Origin: Bacteroidia bacterium
Lineage (GTDB): Bacteria; Bacteroidota; Bacteroidia; UKL13-3
DNA length: 64,000 bases
Reading direction: 5' to 3'
Assembly (NCBI GenBank): GCA_025454875.1
Contig: JALONP010000005.1
Location: 59,040-123,039, forward strand
Shown piece after piece: positions 16,292-23,071 of the stretch. The notes beneath the pieces are model-generated. The model was given only the letters and a program-made list of their open reading frames with translations, did no database searches and was not told the DNA's origin. How positions within the stretch are numbered: position 1 is the stretch's first letter; each line of letters starts with the position of its first letter. The translations under genes and the position numbers were made by a program.

Positions 16292-17767
16292 CTAGCTGAT
16301 TTTAGTGCGCCTATCCTTGAGCGCCATATTGTACAAGCCCTCGATTTCTTTTACAGATAGGTCTAAGTCAATCATCGGTTTAGAATAATTTTTACCTAAT
16401 TCAAAATCATACAACAGCTTTTCATTCACGGCCATTTTATAAGGTTGATGTACCTTGCCATCAGGTAGCAATCTCAATTCAGGTAACCAATGTTTTACAT
16501 ACATCCCGTTAGCATCATAATCGTGAGCTTGTTTTAGGATGTTGAAGTACCTGAAGCCCCTTGCATCATTGCCAACACCCGCTGCGTAATTCCAATTTCC
16601 ATAGTTACTGCATACATCATAATCGATTAATTGTGATTCAAACCATTGCGCTCCCCAAAGCCAGTTTATTCCTAGGTTCTTTGTTAAAAAGCTTGCTACC
16701 AGTTGGCGCCCTCGGTTACTGATAAAACCCGTCTGCAACAATTCACGCATATTGGCATCAATAATGGGATAGCCAGTGTTCCCTGTTCGCCATTGCATAA
16801 ATTGGTGTTCATCTTCTCTCCATTGAATTTGTAATTTTTGAAGTCCTTCTAATTGAAACAATTGCCCTTTGTGTTTGGCTGCAATCCACTTAAAATAATC
16901 ACGCCACAGTAATTCAAATACCAGCCAATAGGTTGAATCATTTTGTACGCGTTCTTGCTCATATTTTTTTACCTCATGGTAAATGCTACGCGCGCTGATA
17001 CAACCCAATGCAAGCCAAGGTGAAAACTTACTGCTGTAACTTTCACCCAACATTCTGTTTCGTGTTTCTTTGTATTGACTTATATGGTTTGTATCCCAAA
17101 AATAATGATTCAATCTTTTTTGCGCCTCAGCTTCGCCTCCTTTAAAATCAAGTACTGCCAACGGTGAAAGCTGTGGCTTTTCTAATCCCAACATTTTGAG
17201 TGTAACTTCTTCAAATTCCAAGTTGTGATTAATGGAAACTAACTTTGTAGGAGCAGGAAGTGAATTGCGAATAGCAGTTTCGCGCTCAACTTTTTTCCTA
17301 AAATCAGTGAATAATTCGGATAGTTTTTGAATGGGAAAAGGCAAATCTTCGGGATGCATCAAAGTGCTATTCCAATACGTAGTTGTTTGAATATGCTGCT
17401 TCAAAAGTGCGCTTTCCAATGCGTCTTCAATGGCAACTTCTTCGGGAGCAATCTCTTTTTGGTATGTCACCAGTTCAATTGTTAACGCTGCACAAATGCT
17501 TGGAACAATTTCTTCGGGTTTACCGAATACAACAATTAAATCACTACCAAGTGTTTGCAATAATTGCTTTAGATGCGTTACACTTTCGAGTATAAATTGG
17601 GCTCTAAAACTTCCTGTTTTTGGAAAACCTATTTCAAGTGTGGTGTAATTTCGCGGATCGAAACAATACACTCCTAAGGTTGGATTTTGTTGTATAGAAG
17701 CTTTGTGTAAAGCCTCATGGTCGGTAATGCGTAAATCGTTTCGAAACCAAATTAACGTACGTTTCAT
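16292..17767 (-). CDS. Cryptochrome/photolyase, DASH type
   Basis: 491 residues. The N-terminal photolyase alpha/beta domain starts MKRTLIWFRNDLRITDHEAL. The C-terminal FAD-binding helical domain has FELLWRDYFKWIA, GYPIIDANMRELLQTGFISNRGRQ and SNYGNWNYAAGVGNDARG followed by FRYFNILKQAHDYDANGMYV. The last two blocks are diagnostic of CRY-DASH rather than CPD class I photolyase. DASH proteins bind FAD and usually a folate antenna, and repair CPDs in single-stranded DNA; some also regulate. Cytoplasmic. Convergent with trxA, no operon partners. Confidence 0.92.
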   Translation of the reverse strand: MKRTLIWFRNDLRITDHEALHKASIQQNPTLGVYCFDPRNYTTLEIGFPKTGSFRAQFILESVTHLKQLLQTLGSDLIVVFGKPEEIVPSICAALTIELVTYQKEIAPEEVAIEDALESALLKQHIQTTTYWNSTLMHPEDLPFPIQKLSELFTDFRKKVERETAIRNSLPAPTKLVSINHNLEFEEVTLKMLGLEKPQLSPLAVLDFKGGEAEAQKRLNHYFWDTNHISQYKETRNRMLGESYSSKFSPWLALGCISARSIYHEVKKYEQERVQNDSTYWLVFELLWRDYFKWIAAKHKGQLFQLEGLQKLQIQWREDEHQFMQWRTGNTGYPIIDANMRELLQTGFISNRGRQLVASFLTKNLGINWLWGAQWFESQLIDYDVCSNYGNWNYAAGVGNDARGFRYFNILKQAHDYDANGMYVKHWLPELRLLPDGKVHQPYKMAVNEKLLYDFELGKNYSKPMIDLDLSVKEIEGLYNMALKDRRTKIS

Positions 17768-17806: not shown

Positions 17807-18394
17807 TTAAAATTGGACAATGCATTGAAACCCGTTTGGAGAAAAACCTATTTGCGTGGTTTGCAATTTTTGCCACAATTTTTCATTGTTATTTCGATGC
17901 AATGCATACATCATACCATCAAACACCAACAAAAAAACACCATTATACATTACAGCATTTCCCCAACCTGTAAGCTGATTCCATTGTGCGGAGTTTCGGT
18001 AGCGTGTTTCTTTTATCCAAGCACCACCTGCAATATAGGCCATATCCAATGCGGCATTTACTAAAAAAATAGTTTCCATTTTCTCACCTGCTTTTAATGC
18101 TTGCACATCATTGGTAAATGGTTTTGTTCGATAGGCTTGTCTCAATCCCGATGCTCCTAAAATTATATTAACACTATTCCATCCAATATTCATTTGGTGA
18201 AAAGCTTTGTTGCTCGCATTTTCAGAGGATAAACCAATTGCACTAACTGTGATATTTGCAATGGCAAAACTGCTCAACGTGGCCATTCCTACTTTTTGAA
18301 GTTGATTATATTGCTTATCAAAGTTTAACAATGGTTGAGCCCAACATTGAATGATTAAAAGTAAAGAAGATAGTCCAGAAATAAATTTCATCAC
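17807..18394 (-). CDS. Unknown membrane protein with signal peptide (195 residues)
   Basis: A cleavable-looking signal peptide (SLLLIIQCWAQP) is followed by a short periplasmic stretch and about four hydrophobic segments (about residues 37-55, 70-82, 108-124, 145-165). Gly, Ala and Asn are common in the helices. The pattern is like small Bacteroidota membrane proteins annotated only as DUFs (it may be DUF6992, but I cannot confirm this). It stands alone: the stop is 40 bp from the cry-DASH start and the next gene upstream is the divergent methionine operon. Confidence 0.7.
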   Translation of the reverse strand: MMKFISGLSSLLLIIQCWAQPLLNFDKQYNQLQKVGMATLSSFAIANITVSAIGLSSENASNKAFHQMNIGWNSVNIILGASGLRQAYRTKPFTNDVQALKAGEKMETIFLVNAALDMAYIAGGAWIKETRYRNSAQWNQLTGWGNAVMYNGVFLLVFDGMMYALHRNNNEKLWQKLQTTQIGFSPNGFQCIVQF

Positions 18395-18566
18395 GTAAAA
18401 TTAATACTAATTAGGTGCTTTCAGTTTAATTAATAATTAATTTATTAAATCTGTCAACCTCAATAAAATAAGTATCTCGCAAGATATTTTAGTGTTTCAA
18501 TTAACTTTTTTTCAAAAAAATAATTTGCATTTCTACTTTTTTCTCTTTCATATTTGCATCACCAAA

Positions 18567-18647
18567 ATGAACAACAAACAACACATATCTGTTTCTCAAA
18601 TGCACCGAATGCATCATTGCATGTGCATGTGTTGTATGTGCATGTAA
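18567..18647 (+). CDS. Met/Cys-rich leader peptide of the methionine operon (26 residues)
   Basis: ATG at 18567 to TAA at 18645-18647. The peptide has an ordinary start (MNNKQHISVSQ), then RMHH, and ends in nine residues reading CMCMCCMCM before the stop. Six of its last fifteen residues are Met and five are Cys; both amino acids are rare in bacterial proteins. The ORF lies 342 bp before metY, the first gene of metY-metX-thioesterase-hom. This is the design of a ribosome-mediated attenuator: scarcity of charged Met-tRNA or Cys-tRNA would stall the ribosome on the run and change folding of the downstream leader. Seen: the ORF and its codons. Inferred: translation and regulation. No matching signal is known to me for this operon. 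Confidence 0.75.
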   Translation: MNNKQHISVSQMHRMHHCMCMCCMCM

Positions 18648-18787
18648 TTGCACTCAAAGAAGGGTTGTTGTCGTTCCCTCCCCAATTGGCAAACCAATCA
18701 ATCACATTTCTTAATAAACTAAAAACGCATCACAAGTGTATTTCATTAACACACTTCCATTCACAAACACATTAAGCTGCAACTGCT

Positions 18788-18952
18788 GCATGATGATGCG
18801 TATGCGTTGCTCATACGAGCAACACCATTCCCACAGTTGATAAGGGCGCAGGAAGCGTCCTGCAACACTCGCCCAAAATAATCGCTGTAATACTTTAACA
18901 TTTCGTTTAAGAGTTTACACAATGGCTTACCACAGCCTTTTTTTCGTGGTAC
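18788..18952 (+). promoter_or_regulatory. Candidate attenuator structures downstream of the Met/Cys leader
   Basis: Four elements lie between leader peptide and metY. ATGATGC (18793-18799) can pair with GCATCAT (18611-18617) inside the leader ORF just before the Cys/Met run. GTTGCTC (18806-18812) pairs with GAGCAAC (18817-18823). GGGCGCAGGA (18844-18853) pairs with TCCTG(C) at 18858-18863 and CGCCC at 18870-18874. Last, GGCT (18924-18927) and AGCC (18934-18937) form a short stem followed by seven T (18938-18944), terminator-like but weak. TACCAC in its loop (18928-18933) can instead pair with GTGGTA (18946-18951). The parts suit a switch; the actual fold is inferred. Confidence 0.45.
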
Positions 18953-18980
18953 TTCTTTAATCAATTCAAAAAAACAATAA

Positions 18981-20312
<1,332 letters not shown>

Positions 20313-20324
20313 TATTTTAAAAAG

Positions 20325-20358
20325 AAAACGTGGGTGGTTATTCGCTACTCACGTTTTT
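20325..20358 (+). terminator. Hairpin with T run between metY and metX
   Basis: AAAACGTGGGT (20325-20335) pairs with ACTCACGTTTT (20347-20357) with one G-T wobble and an 11-nt loop; the T run is five bases. It sits 13 bp after the metY stop and 16 bp before the metX start. It may be a partial terminator that lowers expression of metX-hom relative to metY, or it may stabilise the metY 3' end. Confidence 0.65.
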
Positions 20359-20373
20359 CAACCAACACCAATA

Positions 20374-21405
20374 ATGCCAATTTTTAAGTATAACAAAGAA
20401 ACACAACTCGAAAGTGGAGCAACACTTCCATCTTACCATTTATCCTACGAAACATGGGGTGAGTTAAATGCCAAACGAAATAATGTGGTATGGATTTTTC
20501 ATGCGCTTACTGCCAATGCCAATGCAGCCGATTGGTGGAGTGGATTGGTTGGTGAAGGAGAGTTTTTCGATCCTTCGACTTATTTTATTGTATGTGTAAA
20601 CATGCCAGGGTCGTGTTACGGAAGTATTAGTCCATTAAGCATCAATGCCGAAACGCAACAGCCCTATTATGCAACTTTTCCATTGATAACACCACGTGAT
20701 ATGGTGTGCATGTACGATACATTGCGCAAGCAGTTGCAAATTGAACAAATAGCAATAGGCATTGGAGGTTCAATGGGTGGCATGCAAGCATTGGAATGGG
20801 CTATTGAGCAACCTAAGTTGTTTAAACAATTGGTATTAATTGCAACCAACGCCAAACATTCGCCTTGGGGAATTGCGTTTAATACCGCTCAACGCATGGC
20901 TATTGAAGCCGATCAAACTTGGTTGCAACACAGTGAGTTTGCCGGAGCAAAAGGATTACGGGCGGCTCGAGCAATGGCCATGGTTTCGTATCGCAATTAT
21001 TATCCGTTTAAAGAAACACAAAGCGAAACTGATGATGAAAAGGTGGATAATTTTAGAGCGTCAACCTATCAATATTATCAAGGTGAAAAGTTAGTAATGC
21101 GCTTTAATGCGTATTCATACTATGCGCTAAGCAAAAGCATGGATGCGCACAATGTGGGAAGAGCTAGAGGAGGTGTAGCAAAAGCACTGCAACAAATACA
21201 ATCTCAAACGCTTGTTATCGGTATTGAGTCAGATTTATTATTTCCACCTGAAGAGCAATTGTTTTTATCACATCATATTCCCAACACTCAGTTTAAATTA
21301 ATTGACTCACCTTATGGCCATGATGGATTTTTGATAGAGGCTGAAGAACTCACACAGTTACTTCGTCAATTTACAAAACCTTTAAAGCAACTTACTCAAA
21401 TATGA
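20374..21405 (+). CDS. metX: Homoserine O-acetyltransferase
   Basis: 343 residues from the ATG at 20374, an alpha/beta hydrolase. The nucleophile is Ser133 in GIGGSMGGMQALEWA and the catalytic His316 is in PYGHDGF. NNVVWIFHALTANANAADWWSGLVG and the oxyanion region match MetX. An in-frame ATG at 20269 would add 35 residues but lies inside metY and crosses the metY-metX hairpin, so 20374 is preferred; the protein then starts MPIFKYNKETQLESG, at the normal family position. It makes O-acetylhomoserine for MetY. Its stop overlaps the next start (ATGA). Confidence 0.95.
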   Translation: MPIFKYNKETQLESGATLPSYHLSYETWGELNAKRNNVVWIFHALTANANAADWWSGLVGEGEFFDPSTYFIVCVNMPGSCYGSISPLSINAETQQPYYATFPLITPRDMVCMYDTLRKQLQIEQIAIGIGGSMGGMQALEWAIEQPKLFKQLVLIATNAKHSPWGIAFNTAQRMAIEADQTWLQHSEFAGAKGLRAARAMAMVSYRNYYPFKETQSETDDEKVDNFRASTYQYYQGEKLVMRFNAYSYYALSKSMDAHNVGRARGGVAKALQQIQSQTLVIGIESDLLFPPEEQLFLSHHIPNTQFKLIDSPYGHDGFLIEAEELTQLLRQFTKPLKQLTQI

Positions 21406-21827
21406 ACGAACAAACAAACACCACCATAGCAAAGAGTGCAGTGAGCCAAACTACGCTGCACTCGTTTATGGTTTTTCCAGAAGATTTGAATTATGCAGGT
21501 ACTTTATTTGGCGGAAAAGTATTAGCAGAAATGGACAGAGCAGCGGCTAAAGCCGCGCGCAGGTTGTTATACGGAACGCCCTGTGATGGCTCTGTTACGG
21601 TAAGTTTAGATAAGGTTGACTTCGTCTCTCCAGCACATTTGGGTGATTTTATTGAGCTAACCGCTACGCTTAAAAAACTTGGTCGAACATCTATTGAAAT
21701 TCATGTATATGTTTCGAAAGAAGATACAACTGGAGCTATTGCTAAAATATGTGAAGGTACTTTCGTTTTTGTATCGCTTAAAGATGGGAAACCCTATCCA
21801 CATAATTGCTTTTTTTCAACTAATTAA
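21402..21827 (+). CDS. Hotdog-fold acyl-CoA thioesterase
   Basis: 141 residues of the YciA/BACH-like acyl-CoA hydrolase family. MVFPEDLNYAGTLFGGKVLAEMDRAAA (in two blocks) is the family signature, with the Asn/Asp and Gly-Gly of the CoA-binding hotdog helix. It is a single hotdog domain, likely a hexamer, cytoplasmic. It overlaps metX by 4 bp and is followed by hom after 11 bp, so it is translated inside the methionine operon. Its link to methionine synthesis is not known; it might act on CoA thioesters such as acetyl-CoA or be there by chance. Confidence 0.88.
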   Translation: MNEQTNTTIAKSAVSQTTLHSFMVFPEDLNYAGTLFGGKVLAEMDRAAAKAARRLLYGTPCDGSVTVSLDKVDFVSPAHLGDFIELTATLKKLGRTSIEIHVYVSKEDTTGAIAKICEGTFVFVSLKDGKPYPHNCFFSTN

Positions 21828-21838
21828 TAATAAATAAA

Positions 21839-23071
21839 ATGAATACATTAAACATCGGATTGTTCGGGTTTGGCTGCGTGGGCCAAGGTTTATATGAAGT
21901 ACTCAAACAATCACAAAGTATAAATGCAAACATCACAAAGATTTGTGTGAAACAAAAAAATAAACAACGTAGTATTGATGCTTCAAATTTTGTGTATGAT
22001 AAATGGGAATTGCTCAATGATGAAAATATAAATGTGATTGTTGAGTTAATTGATGATGCAGCAGAAGCATTTTTAATTGTGAGTGAAGCACTCAAAAGGG
22101 GCAAAGCGGTGGTTACGGCCAACAAAAAGATGGTGGCCGAAAATTTTAATGCACTGTATCACTTACAACAAGAATATAAGGTTCCATTGCTATACGAAGG
22201 CTCTGTTGGTGGAGCCATTCCAATCATTAGAACGTTGGAAGAGTATTATGATAACGACTTGTTACAAAGTGTTGAAGGAATTTTAAATGGCACTACTAAT
22301 TACATTTTAACTAAAATTGCAAAGGAGCAAAAAAACTATAACGAAGCTCTACTTGGCGCACAACAATTGGGCTTTGCAGAAAGCAATCCGAAATTGGATG
22401 TGGAGGCTTATGATCCTAAGTATAAACTGACTATTTTATTAGCTCATGCATATGGTTTGATTGTTTTGCCAAATGAGGTGTTAAACAGCGGCATTCAATT
22501 TTTGAGTAAACGCGATACCCAATTTGCAACTGAAAATGGCTATTCACTCAAATTAATTGCACAGGCATACAAAACGGCAAATGGAGTTGCTGCCTTTGTA
22601 TTGCCACAATTTATTACTTCCGAAAATGCATTTTACAATGTAAATAATGAATTTAATGCAGTGCAAGTTTCGGGAGCATTTAGCGATAAGCAATTATTGA
22701 AAGGCAAAGGAGCGGGAAGTTATCCAACGGCTGCGGCTGTGTTATCTGATATTTCGGCATTAAACTATAGCTATAAATATGGCTACCGTAAAATCCGACA
22801 GAATAAGCTAGCATTGGATACCAATGAAAACCTCGCCATTTATTTACGCTATGCCGATGATGCTATTTTAGGTATACTCAATTTTGAAACAGTAGAAGAT
22901 GAATTTGTCAGTAAAGAATACAAATACGTGGTAGGACAAGTTAGTATTGCTGATTTATTACGCGCAAATTTGAATGAACGGAACGATGTATTTGTTGGAG
23001 TAGTGGAACGACCGTTATTTATTAAGAAAAAACCATATGCTCAATTAGAGCAGATGGTTAGTATACATTGA
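21839..23071 (+). CDS. hom: Homoserine dehydrogenase
   Basis: 410 residues. The N-terminal NAD(P)-binding domain starts NIGLFGFGCVGQG. The catalytic domain has VVTANKKMVAE, YEGSVGGAIPIIRTLE, ILNGTTNYILTKI and LDVEAYDPKYKLTILLAHAYG, with the catalytic Lys and Asp/Glu positions of the family. The C-terminus (about 330-410) is a short domain that may be ACT-like but is not clearly one. It is free-standing, not fused to aspartokinase. It reduces aspartate semialdehyde to homoserine, supplying MetX; it is also needed for threonine. Last gene of the operon; its stop codon touches the stop of the convergent murF-alr gene. Confidence 0.94.
   Translation: MNTLNIGLFGFGCVGQGLYEVLKQSQSINANITKICVKQKNKQRSIDASNFVYDKWELLNDENINVIVELIDDAAEAFLIVSEALKRGKAVVTANKKMVAENFNALYHLQQEYKVPLLYEGSVGGAIPIIRTLEEYYDNDLLQSVEGILNGTTNYILTKIAKEQKNYNEALLGAQQLGFAESNPKLDVEAYDPKYKLTILLAHAYGLIVLPNEVLNSGIQFLSKRDTQFATENGYSLKLIAQAYKTANGVAAFVLPQFITSENAFYNVNNEFNAVQVSGAFSDKQLLKGKGAGSYPTAAAVLSDISALNYSYKYGYRKIRQNKLALDTNENLAIYLRYADDAILGILNFETVEDEFVSKEYKYVVGQVSIADLLRANLNERNDVFVGVVERPLFIKKKPYAQLEQMVSIH

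Follow-up and report, generated by a model that had tools for sequence, protein, structure and literature searches.

Candidate tandem Met/Cys leader peptides ahead of metY in Bacteroidota, in alternation with the SAM-I riboswitch

Introduction

Does a short open reading frame (ORF) that ends in a run of methionine and cysteine codons ahead of a methionine operon serve the ribosome as a gauge of these two amino acids? The question is raised by 64,000 nt of contig JALONP010000005.1 (assembly GCA_025454875.1, Bacteroidia bacterium, positions 59,040-123,039), referred to here as the window, meaning the whole stretch of DNA that was analysed. A sequence-only reading of the window had proposed that one such ORF, here called p1, is an attenuating leader peptide of a kind undescribed in Bacteroidota.

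Results

The description of p1 was correct when the sequence was re-read: it has 26 codons, 11 of its last 15 residues are Met or Cys, and 342 nt separate its stop codon from the metY ATG at 18990. Between the two lies a further ORF, p2, which had gone unmentioned and forms a tandem pair with p1 ahead of metY. The elements of this leader are as follows (L numbers denote loci).

18525..18556, + strand: promoter-like element TTG-N21-CATATTTG, ending 10 nt 5' of the p1 ATG
18567..18647, + strand: leader ORF p1, ATG to TAA, 26 residues, MNNKQHISVSQMHRMHHCMCMCCMCM and stop; counterparts in L002, L003, L005, L006 and L008
18600..18644, + strand: Met/Cys codon run of p1, 11 of 15 residues Met or Cys
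18736..18840, + strand: leader ORF p2, GTG start, 34 amino acids, ending in SCNCCMMMRMRCSYEQHHSHS and stop
18778..18810, + strand: Met/Cys codon run of p2, 8 of 11 residues

Read from its GTG codon, p2 is MYFINTLPFTNTLSCNCCMMMRMRCSYEQHHSHS; the start codon at the matching place is GTG in L002, L003 and L005 and ATG in L006. The GTG start counts against the explanation that we favour below. The element at 18525..18556, which resembles the Bacteroidota promoter consensus, has equal spacing in L002 and L003 as judged by eye; a sigma-70 scan of the window leader concerns another promoter type than TTG-N21-CATATTTG. If transcription starts from this element, p1 would be nearly leaderless, close to the mycobacterial type of poly-Cys sORF, in which transcription begins at or beside the start codon. 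Further upstream, a divergent gene on the - strand (17807-18394) encodes a DUF6992 protein and adjoins a DASH cryptochrome gene (16292-17767, - strand).

The gene order metY-metX-thioesterase-hom given for the downstream operon agrees with profile matches, those of the metX-like protein lying below the curated cut-offs.

18990..20312, + strand: metY, O-acetylhomoserine sulfhydrylase (TIGR01326, 672.5 bits, cut-off 495.1; PF01053)
20374..21405, + strand: metX-like homoserine O-acetyltransferase (TIGR01392, 351.9 bits, cut-off 500; Abhydrolase_1)
21402..21827, + strand: 4HBT-type thioesterase (PF03061)
21839..23071, + strand: hom, homoserine dehydrogenase (NF004976, 310.2 bits, cut-off 205; PF00742)

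The metX-like protein falls short of the cut-offs of both of its best models, with 351.9 bits where 500 are required and 318.7 where 331 are; its start codon is a putative one, the ORF being open from 20269 and the scan covering 20332-21405. By the profile matches of the operon genes, the Met and Cys of the leader runs are the amino acids of the operon's own pathway. An exact 18-base pattern for CMCCMC occurs once in the window's genome, in p1. Looser matching (up to 3 mismatches) gave 66 other matches as candidates for further leaders; among the seven inspected (L228-L234), six lie within or across a long frame, L233 has no listed ORF, and none is a second leader.

Relatives were represented by 13 metY loci (L001-L013) from 97 related genomes, the best 80 matches in GTDB species genomes, 26 loci from 395 genomes of the class, and 40 further flanks from down the same list, for which only L205 and L206 were taken from the many places at 50-55% identity. 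More distant PLP enzymes (L014-L030) were left out of the locus set, and 156 of the 159 loci were used, excluding L031 (repeats L002), L141 (repeats L039) and L098 (too little upstream sequence). A leader ORF was defined as having at most 90 residues, at least 6 Met or Cys in a 15-residue window, and a position within 400 nt 5' of metY. On the coding strand, 86 of the 156 loci have such an ORF; on the reverse strand none does, and dinucleotide shuffles give a mean of 0.3 of 156.

The sequence-only reading was open to refutation if neither the run nor its frame recurred in close relatives. Both ORFs are present at matching places in six of the eight metY loci of the window's family (L001, L002, L003, L005, L006 and L008), the two without leaders being L004, where metY follows a coding frame, and L009, from the window's genus, and the Cys codons change mainly silently. 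L009 (genome G001) carries a long tetranucleotide (TCAA) repeat 5' of metY and no leader ORF. For the codon comparison, 19 independent pairs of leader ORFs were drawn from 59 similar pairs. Cys positions were unchanged in 77 cases, exchanged between TGT and TGC in 32 and replaced in 21, so that 32 of 53 Cys-codon changes are silent. Among all Met/Cys codons 124 were the same, 32 silently changed and 31 replaced (31 of 187), and among the other leader codons the corresponding counts were 184, 95 and 195 (195 of 474 replaced). By these comparisons, the Met/Cys run is kept as codons, beyond the letters of the RNA.

We then compared loci by the presence of a SAM-I riboswitch (S-box), with positions taken from Rfam-model searches (stricter filters for part of the loci) and the region 5' of metY widened to 800 nt. 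Of 105 S-box loci, 70 have a leader ORF and 35 have none at threshold, and two leaders occur in none of the 70. Among the 51 loci without an S-box, 30 have no leader at threshold and 21 do; 13 of these 21 are tandem (13 of 156 overall). This contrast (0 of 70 vs 13 of 21; Fisher P = 1.1e-10 at threshold 6 and 800 nt, kinship ignored) persists when ORF position is not filtered and when the threshold is set to 5, 6 or 7. Leaders also differ in composition, the Met share of Met plus Cys being 0.25 with an S-box vs 0.41 without (P = 7e-5, kinship ignored). Tandem loci occur in at least four families (codes f1, f3, f37 and f54) and in the unplaced records L043 and L080. A quick metY tree was built from 89 of the 91 leader loci; the tandem state switches six times along it, and starred branches force at least three of these switches. 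Absence of an S-box and tandem layout could be compared in three independent pairs (on average 1.3 the same way, 0 opposite, the rest equal; not significant), and S-box and Met fraction gave 1.1 the same way and 0.1 opposite (not significant). With only three well-supported independent pairs, neither the layout nor the Met-share association is significant after correction for kinship; the direction of the two-layout contrast is consistent on the tree, but few independent events stand behind it.

Several genomes with a tandem locus carry S-boxes elsewhere (G050, G006, G280, G105, G141, G203 and G296), indicating that the exchange of riboswitch and leader is local to metY. Upstream of the window's metY no SAM-I riboswitch (RF00162) was found at gathering score or at E values up to 5, and the whole genome (G000, 99.97% complete) gave no match under the stricter filters. 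The 64-kb window has no match at gathering score to any Rfam family, T-box included, and a search of L001 for a T-box at E values up to 5 was negative. A hidden weak S-box was also sought, at E values up to 5, in 14 loci (the 13 tandem loci and L206), and none was found; some attenuators of these loci show a weak likeness to Rfam amino-acid leaders, far under the cut-off (L043, Phe_leader, 29.0 of 55 bits).

Where an S-box is present, the leader ATG follows the aptamer match within 15 nt in 66 of 70 loci, and at 6-10 nt in 54, a position from which the riboswitch may gate translation of the leader. In the four exceptions (L037, L038, L040 and L104) the S-box has a terminator of its own, and the leader, which ends in CMP and stop, lies much further downstream. 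Several of the 35 sub-threshold S-box loci (for example L083, L161, L182 and L196) have shorter or sparser Cys runs at the same place. We also examined 30 S-box loci with regard to other genes (L111-L140), two of which proved to precede metY (L116 and L129). In the remaining 28, where the following gene is mostly a methionine synthase or cystathionine-type enzyme by the look of the next frame, there was no leader-type ORF between S-box and gene; L140 alone has an ORF at threshold, but inside a 244-aa coding frame. The picture of one leader peptide ahead of metY is to be extended on two points: the window carries a tandem pair, and relatives mostly combine the peptide with a SAM-I riboswitch.

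Variants of the riboswitch loci were also observed. Peptides ending in CMP and stop lie within about 150 nt of metY in L036, L037, L038, L040, L070, L081 and L104, mostly from Chitinophagaceae, and that of L040 has a small ATGCC-GTAA-GGCAT hairpin around its stop codon; these leaders are possibly a distinct stop-codon or arrest-type arrangement. In L049, L057 (Spirosoma), L145, L154 and L192 the place of the Cys run after the S-box is taken by a very short peptide whose core is (Q/R)CM(P/S), for example MLYLQQCMSSGAY. L048 has two SAM-I riboswitches in one 6-kb locus (552-663 and 2104-2220), the second followed by a Cys leader and metY.

How the leaders might act is suggested by relatives with terminators. 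Canonical terminators (a strong hairpin and a U run) follow both ORFs in 7 of the 13 tandem loci (L008, L043, L080, L162, L164, L189 and L205), only L008 being from the window's family, and L181 has one after the first ORF only, bringing the tandem loci with a terminator to 8 of 13; L206, with a single leader at threshold, has one as well. Across these 16 attenuators the segment right after the run pairs with the 5' arm of the terminator at a mean z of -2.9 relative to mononucleotide shuffles of the segment. Twelve of the 16, including 11 of the 14 within the seven double-terminator loci, fall under z -1.65, and four miss it, the second attenuator of L189 clearly so. In the first attenuator of L008, the antiterminator duplex reaches -22.5 kcal/mol vs -14.8 for the terminator. 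The predicted order of run, segment 2 and terminator arms 3 and 4 in relatives is the classical attenuator geometry.

The window itself differs in its output step. No intrinsic terminator was found in 18400-19050 (0.4 expected in shuffles), nor a canonical one in L001, L002, L003, L005 and L006, and no clear switch emerged from folding the window leader, which offers no terminator arm for an antiterminator to pair with. Two hairpins are found at the end of p2.

18806..18823, + strand: hairpin GTTGCTC-ATAC-GAGCAAC, overlapping the last Cys codon of p2; kept in L031 (the repeat of L002), L003, L005 and L006
18836..18866, + strand: hairpin with an AGGAA loop, starting at the p2 stop codon

The inner 6-bp stems of the second hairpin differ in sequence among L001, L002, L005 and L006; L003 has a TGGAA loop with five of six pairs, and the loop is otherwise AGGAA or AGGAT. 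It folds at z = -2.3 to -2.8 relative to mononucleotide shuffles, has no Rfam family at gathering score, and recurs in the forward direction in 4 of the 156 loci (reverse control, 0), being confined among them to the window's family. It is possible that this hairpin serves as the expression platform. CsrA is one protein that binds GGA loops; we rejected it as the reader of the hairpin, as the window's genome has no CsrA match.

Discussion

We consider it likely that p1 and p2 are two ribosome-mediated attenuators in series, which would allow expression of the operon once charged Met-tRNA or Cys-tRNA becomes scarce. In this mechanism, a ribosome would trail RNA polymerase through p1. When both amino acids are plentiful, it would reach the stop codon and cover the segment after the run, and the downstream stop signal would form; if it stalled on the run, that segment would be left free to pair with the 5' arm of the stop signal, and transcription would continue. 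As p2 would repeat the test of p1, both gates would have to open, and since each run has both Met and Cys codons, ribosomes would stall at p1 and p2 alike whichever of the two amino acids ran short. Two gates in series should steepen the response; where relatives have an S-box, SAM would be the signal at the first gate. The leader-peptide reading of the locus appears well founded, given the conserved tandem ORFs, the silent drift of Cys codons, and the predicted terminators and antiterminators of relatives. Because a canonical terminator was not found in the window, we infer attenuation there from these relatives. The window has a run of pathway-amino-acid codons in a short ORF and a conserved frame with silent change in the regulatory codons, as trp/his-type attenuators do; as no intrinsic terminator was found between leader and next gene, we regard it as working like such an attenuator, and not as a full member of the class.

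A variant compatible with this explanation, in which the leaders sense Met and Cys and the output runs through Rho-dependent termination or through translational attenuation by the hairpins after p2, is a real possibility, although we rate its chances at somewhat under even. In the window, as in the four tandem relatives nearest to it, no U-run terminator was found but hairpins are conserved at or after the p2 stop codon, one of them keeping its AGGAA loop on changed stems. Most riboswitch-plus-leader loci are likewise without terminators (9 of 70 have one between leader and metY, 3.7 expected), suggesting that the output step is not uniform. Averaged over 69 of the 70 S-box-plus-leader loci, complementarity of the Cys run to the downstream leader is weakly above that of a control stretch (mean z -0.63 vs -0.33, P = 0.05); as a general switch in riboswitch loci such pairing was set aside, the effect being weak only. 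Against the variant stand the two strong terminators with antiterminators of L008, a locus from the same family; the missing CsrA match and the lack of a clear switch in the window folds count against it as well.

The same lack of a canonical terminator, in the window as in four near relatives, would also be expected if the leaders were relics, conserved in sequence and no longer regulating after decay of their terminators. We find this improbable, as decay would not keep both runs and hairpins, and the runs and post-p2 hairpins are kept across five genomes with metY proteins 80-85% identical to that of the window. Less probable still is that p1 and p2 are Cys/Met-rich small proteins co-transcribed with metY and acting in trans in metal or redox handling. 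Cys/Met-rich peptides can bind metals, and the frames are conserved; however, the peptides diverge outside the run even in close pairs, as the replaced codons counted above show, the runs vary among loci from CCCCCC to MMMCCM, and in relatives the two unlike tandem copies each come with a terminator and mostly an antiterminator. Short ORFs are common, but a chance ATG/TGY codon run in a random intergenic ORF is refuted, to the point of being negligible, by the 86 loci with leaders compared with the reverse strand and shuffles, together with the silent Cys drift.

Returning to serial attenuation, we propose that Bacteroidota metY is under a two-slot sensor. Slot 2 would be a Cys/Met leader peptide and slot 1 would be interchangeable, holding either a SAM-I riboswitch, which by ending no more than 15 nt before the leader start codon would gate its translation, or a second Met/Cys leader; in the window's family, a Met-rich peptide would have replaced the riboswitch, turning SAM sensing into a reading of tRNA charging. 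Taken jointly, these claims have in our view an even chance of being right. If they are, many Bacteroidota gauge Met and Cys supply by ribosome stalling before an enzyme of sulfur assimilation, either serially with a riboswitch that is among the best known or as its substitute. The same regulatory slot would then be occupied in some lineages by a metabolite aptamer and in others by a translated codon run, a natural series in which slot exchange can be followed lineage by lineage, and a SAM riboswitch opening the start codon of a leader peptide would be a testable logic gate of which we found no published description.

Our search, of mostly non-subscription literature, found no published description of Bacteroidota with a Met/Cys leader peptide or with a leader peptide placed after an S-box. 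The novelty first claimed for p1 therefore stands provisionally, as does that of the tandem leaders. According to one report, there are clues for leader-peptide attenuation upstream of amino-acid biosynthesis operons of Flavobacterium psychrophilum (PMC9723704), and these operons could include a Met/Cys-leader case. Leader-like sORFs are mentioned for Bacteroides (PMC7366714), and a SAM-II riboswitch has been described that exerts its effect from a distance and involves no leader peptide (PMC9373788).

Poly-Cys leader ORFs have reportedly been described by Canestrari in 2020. Such ORFs precede cys/cbs operons in Mycobacterium, P. acnes and B. longum, and resemble ours in that Cys runs lie close to the stop codon, the short ORF comes before sulfur amino-acid genes, and there is likewise no conserved terminator hairpin (PMC1262725). 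The present leaders differ in phylum, in preceding metY, in the Met codons mixed in and in their tandem pairs, with terminators in some lineages and an S-box partner in others. The trp, his and ilv leaders are the classical ribosome-mediated transcription attenuators (PMC13236596, PMC1262725). They share with our loci the short ORF, the run of pathway codons and, in relatives, alternative antiterminator and terminator pairings after the run; here, in contrast, Met and Cys codons occur together, two leaders stand in series, a SAM-I riboswitch takes the peptide's place in other loci, and the window has no canonical terminator. The uORFC-8-2 motif, linked to cysS and proposed to act by ribosome-mediated attenuation with a U-run terminator (PMC8632094), also has Cys codons in a uORF, but only two conserved ones, in a single attenuator ahead of a synthetase gene.

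Comparison with riboswitches is similarly instructive. Tandem riboswitches acting as logic gates (PMC9481103) place two sensors serially on one leader, and the SAM-I riboswitch serves the same gene in sister loci; here the second sensor is a leader peptide, and the window's genome is without any S-box match. Exchange of a T-box or riboswitch with a leader peptide between lineages, for one and the same gene, was described by Naville in 2010 (PMC2965389). In Bacteroidota metY, by contrast, one leader peptide would be retained, and next to it a riboswitch and a second leader peptide would be exchanged for each other.
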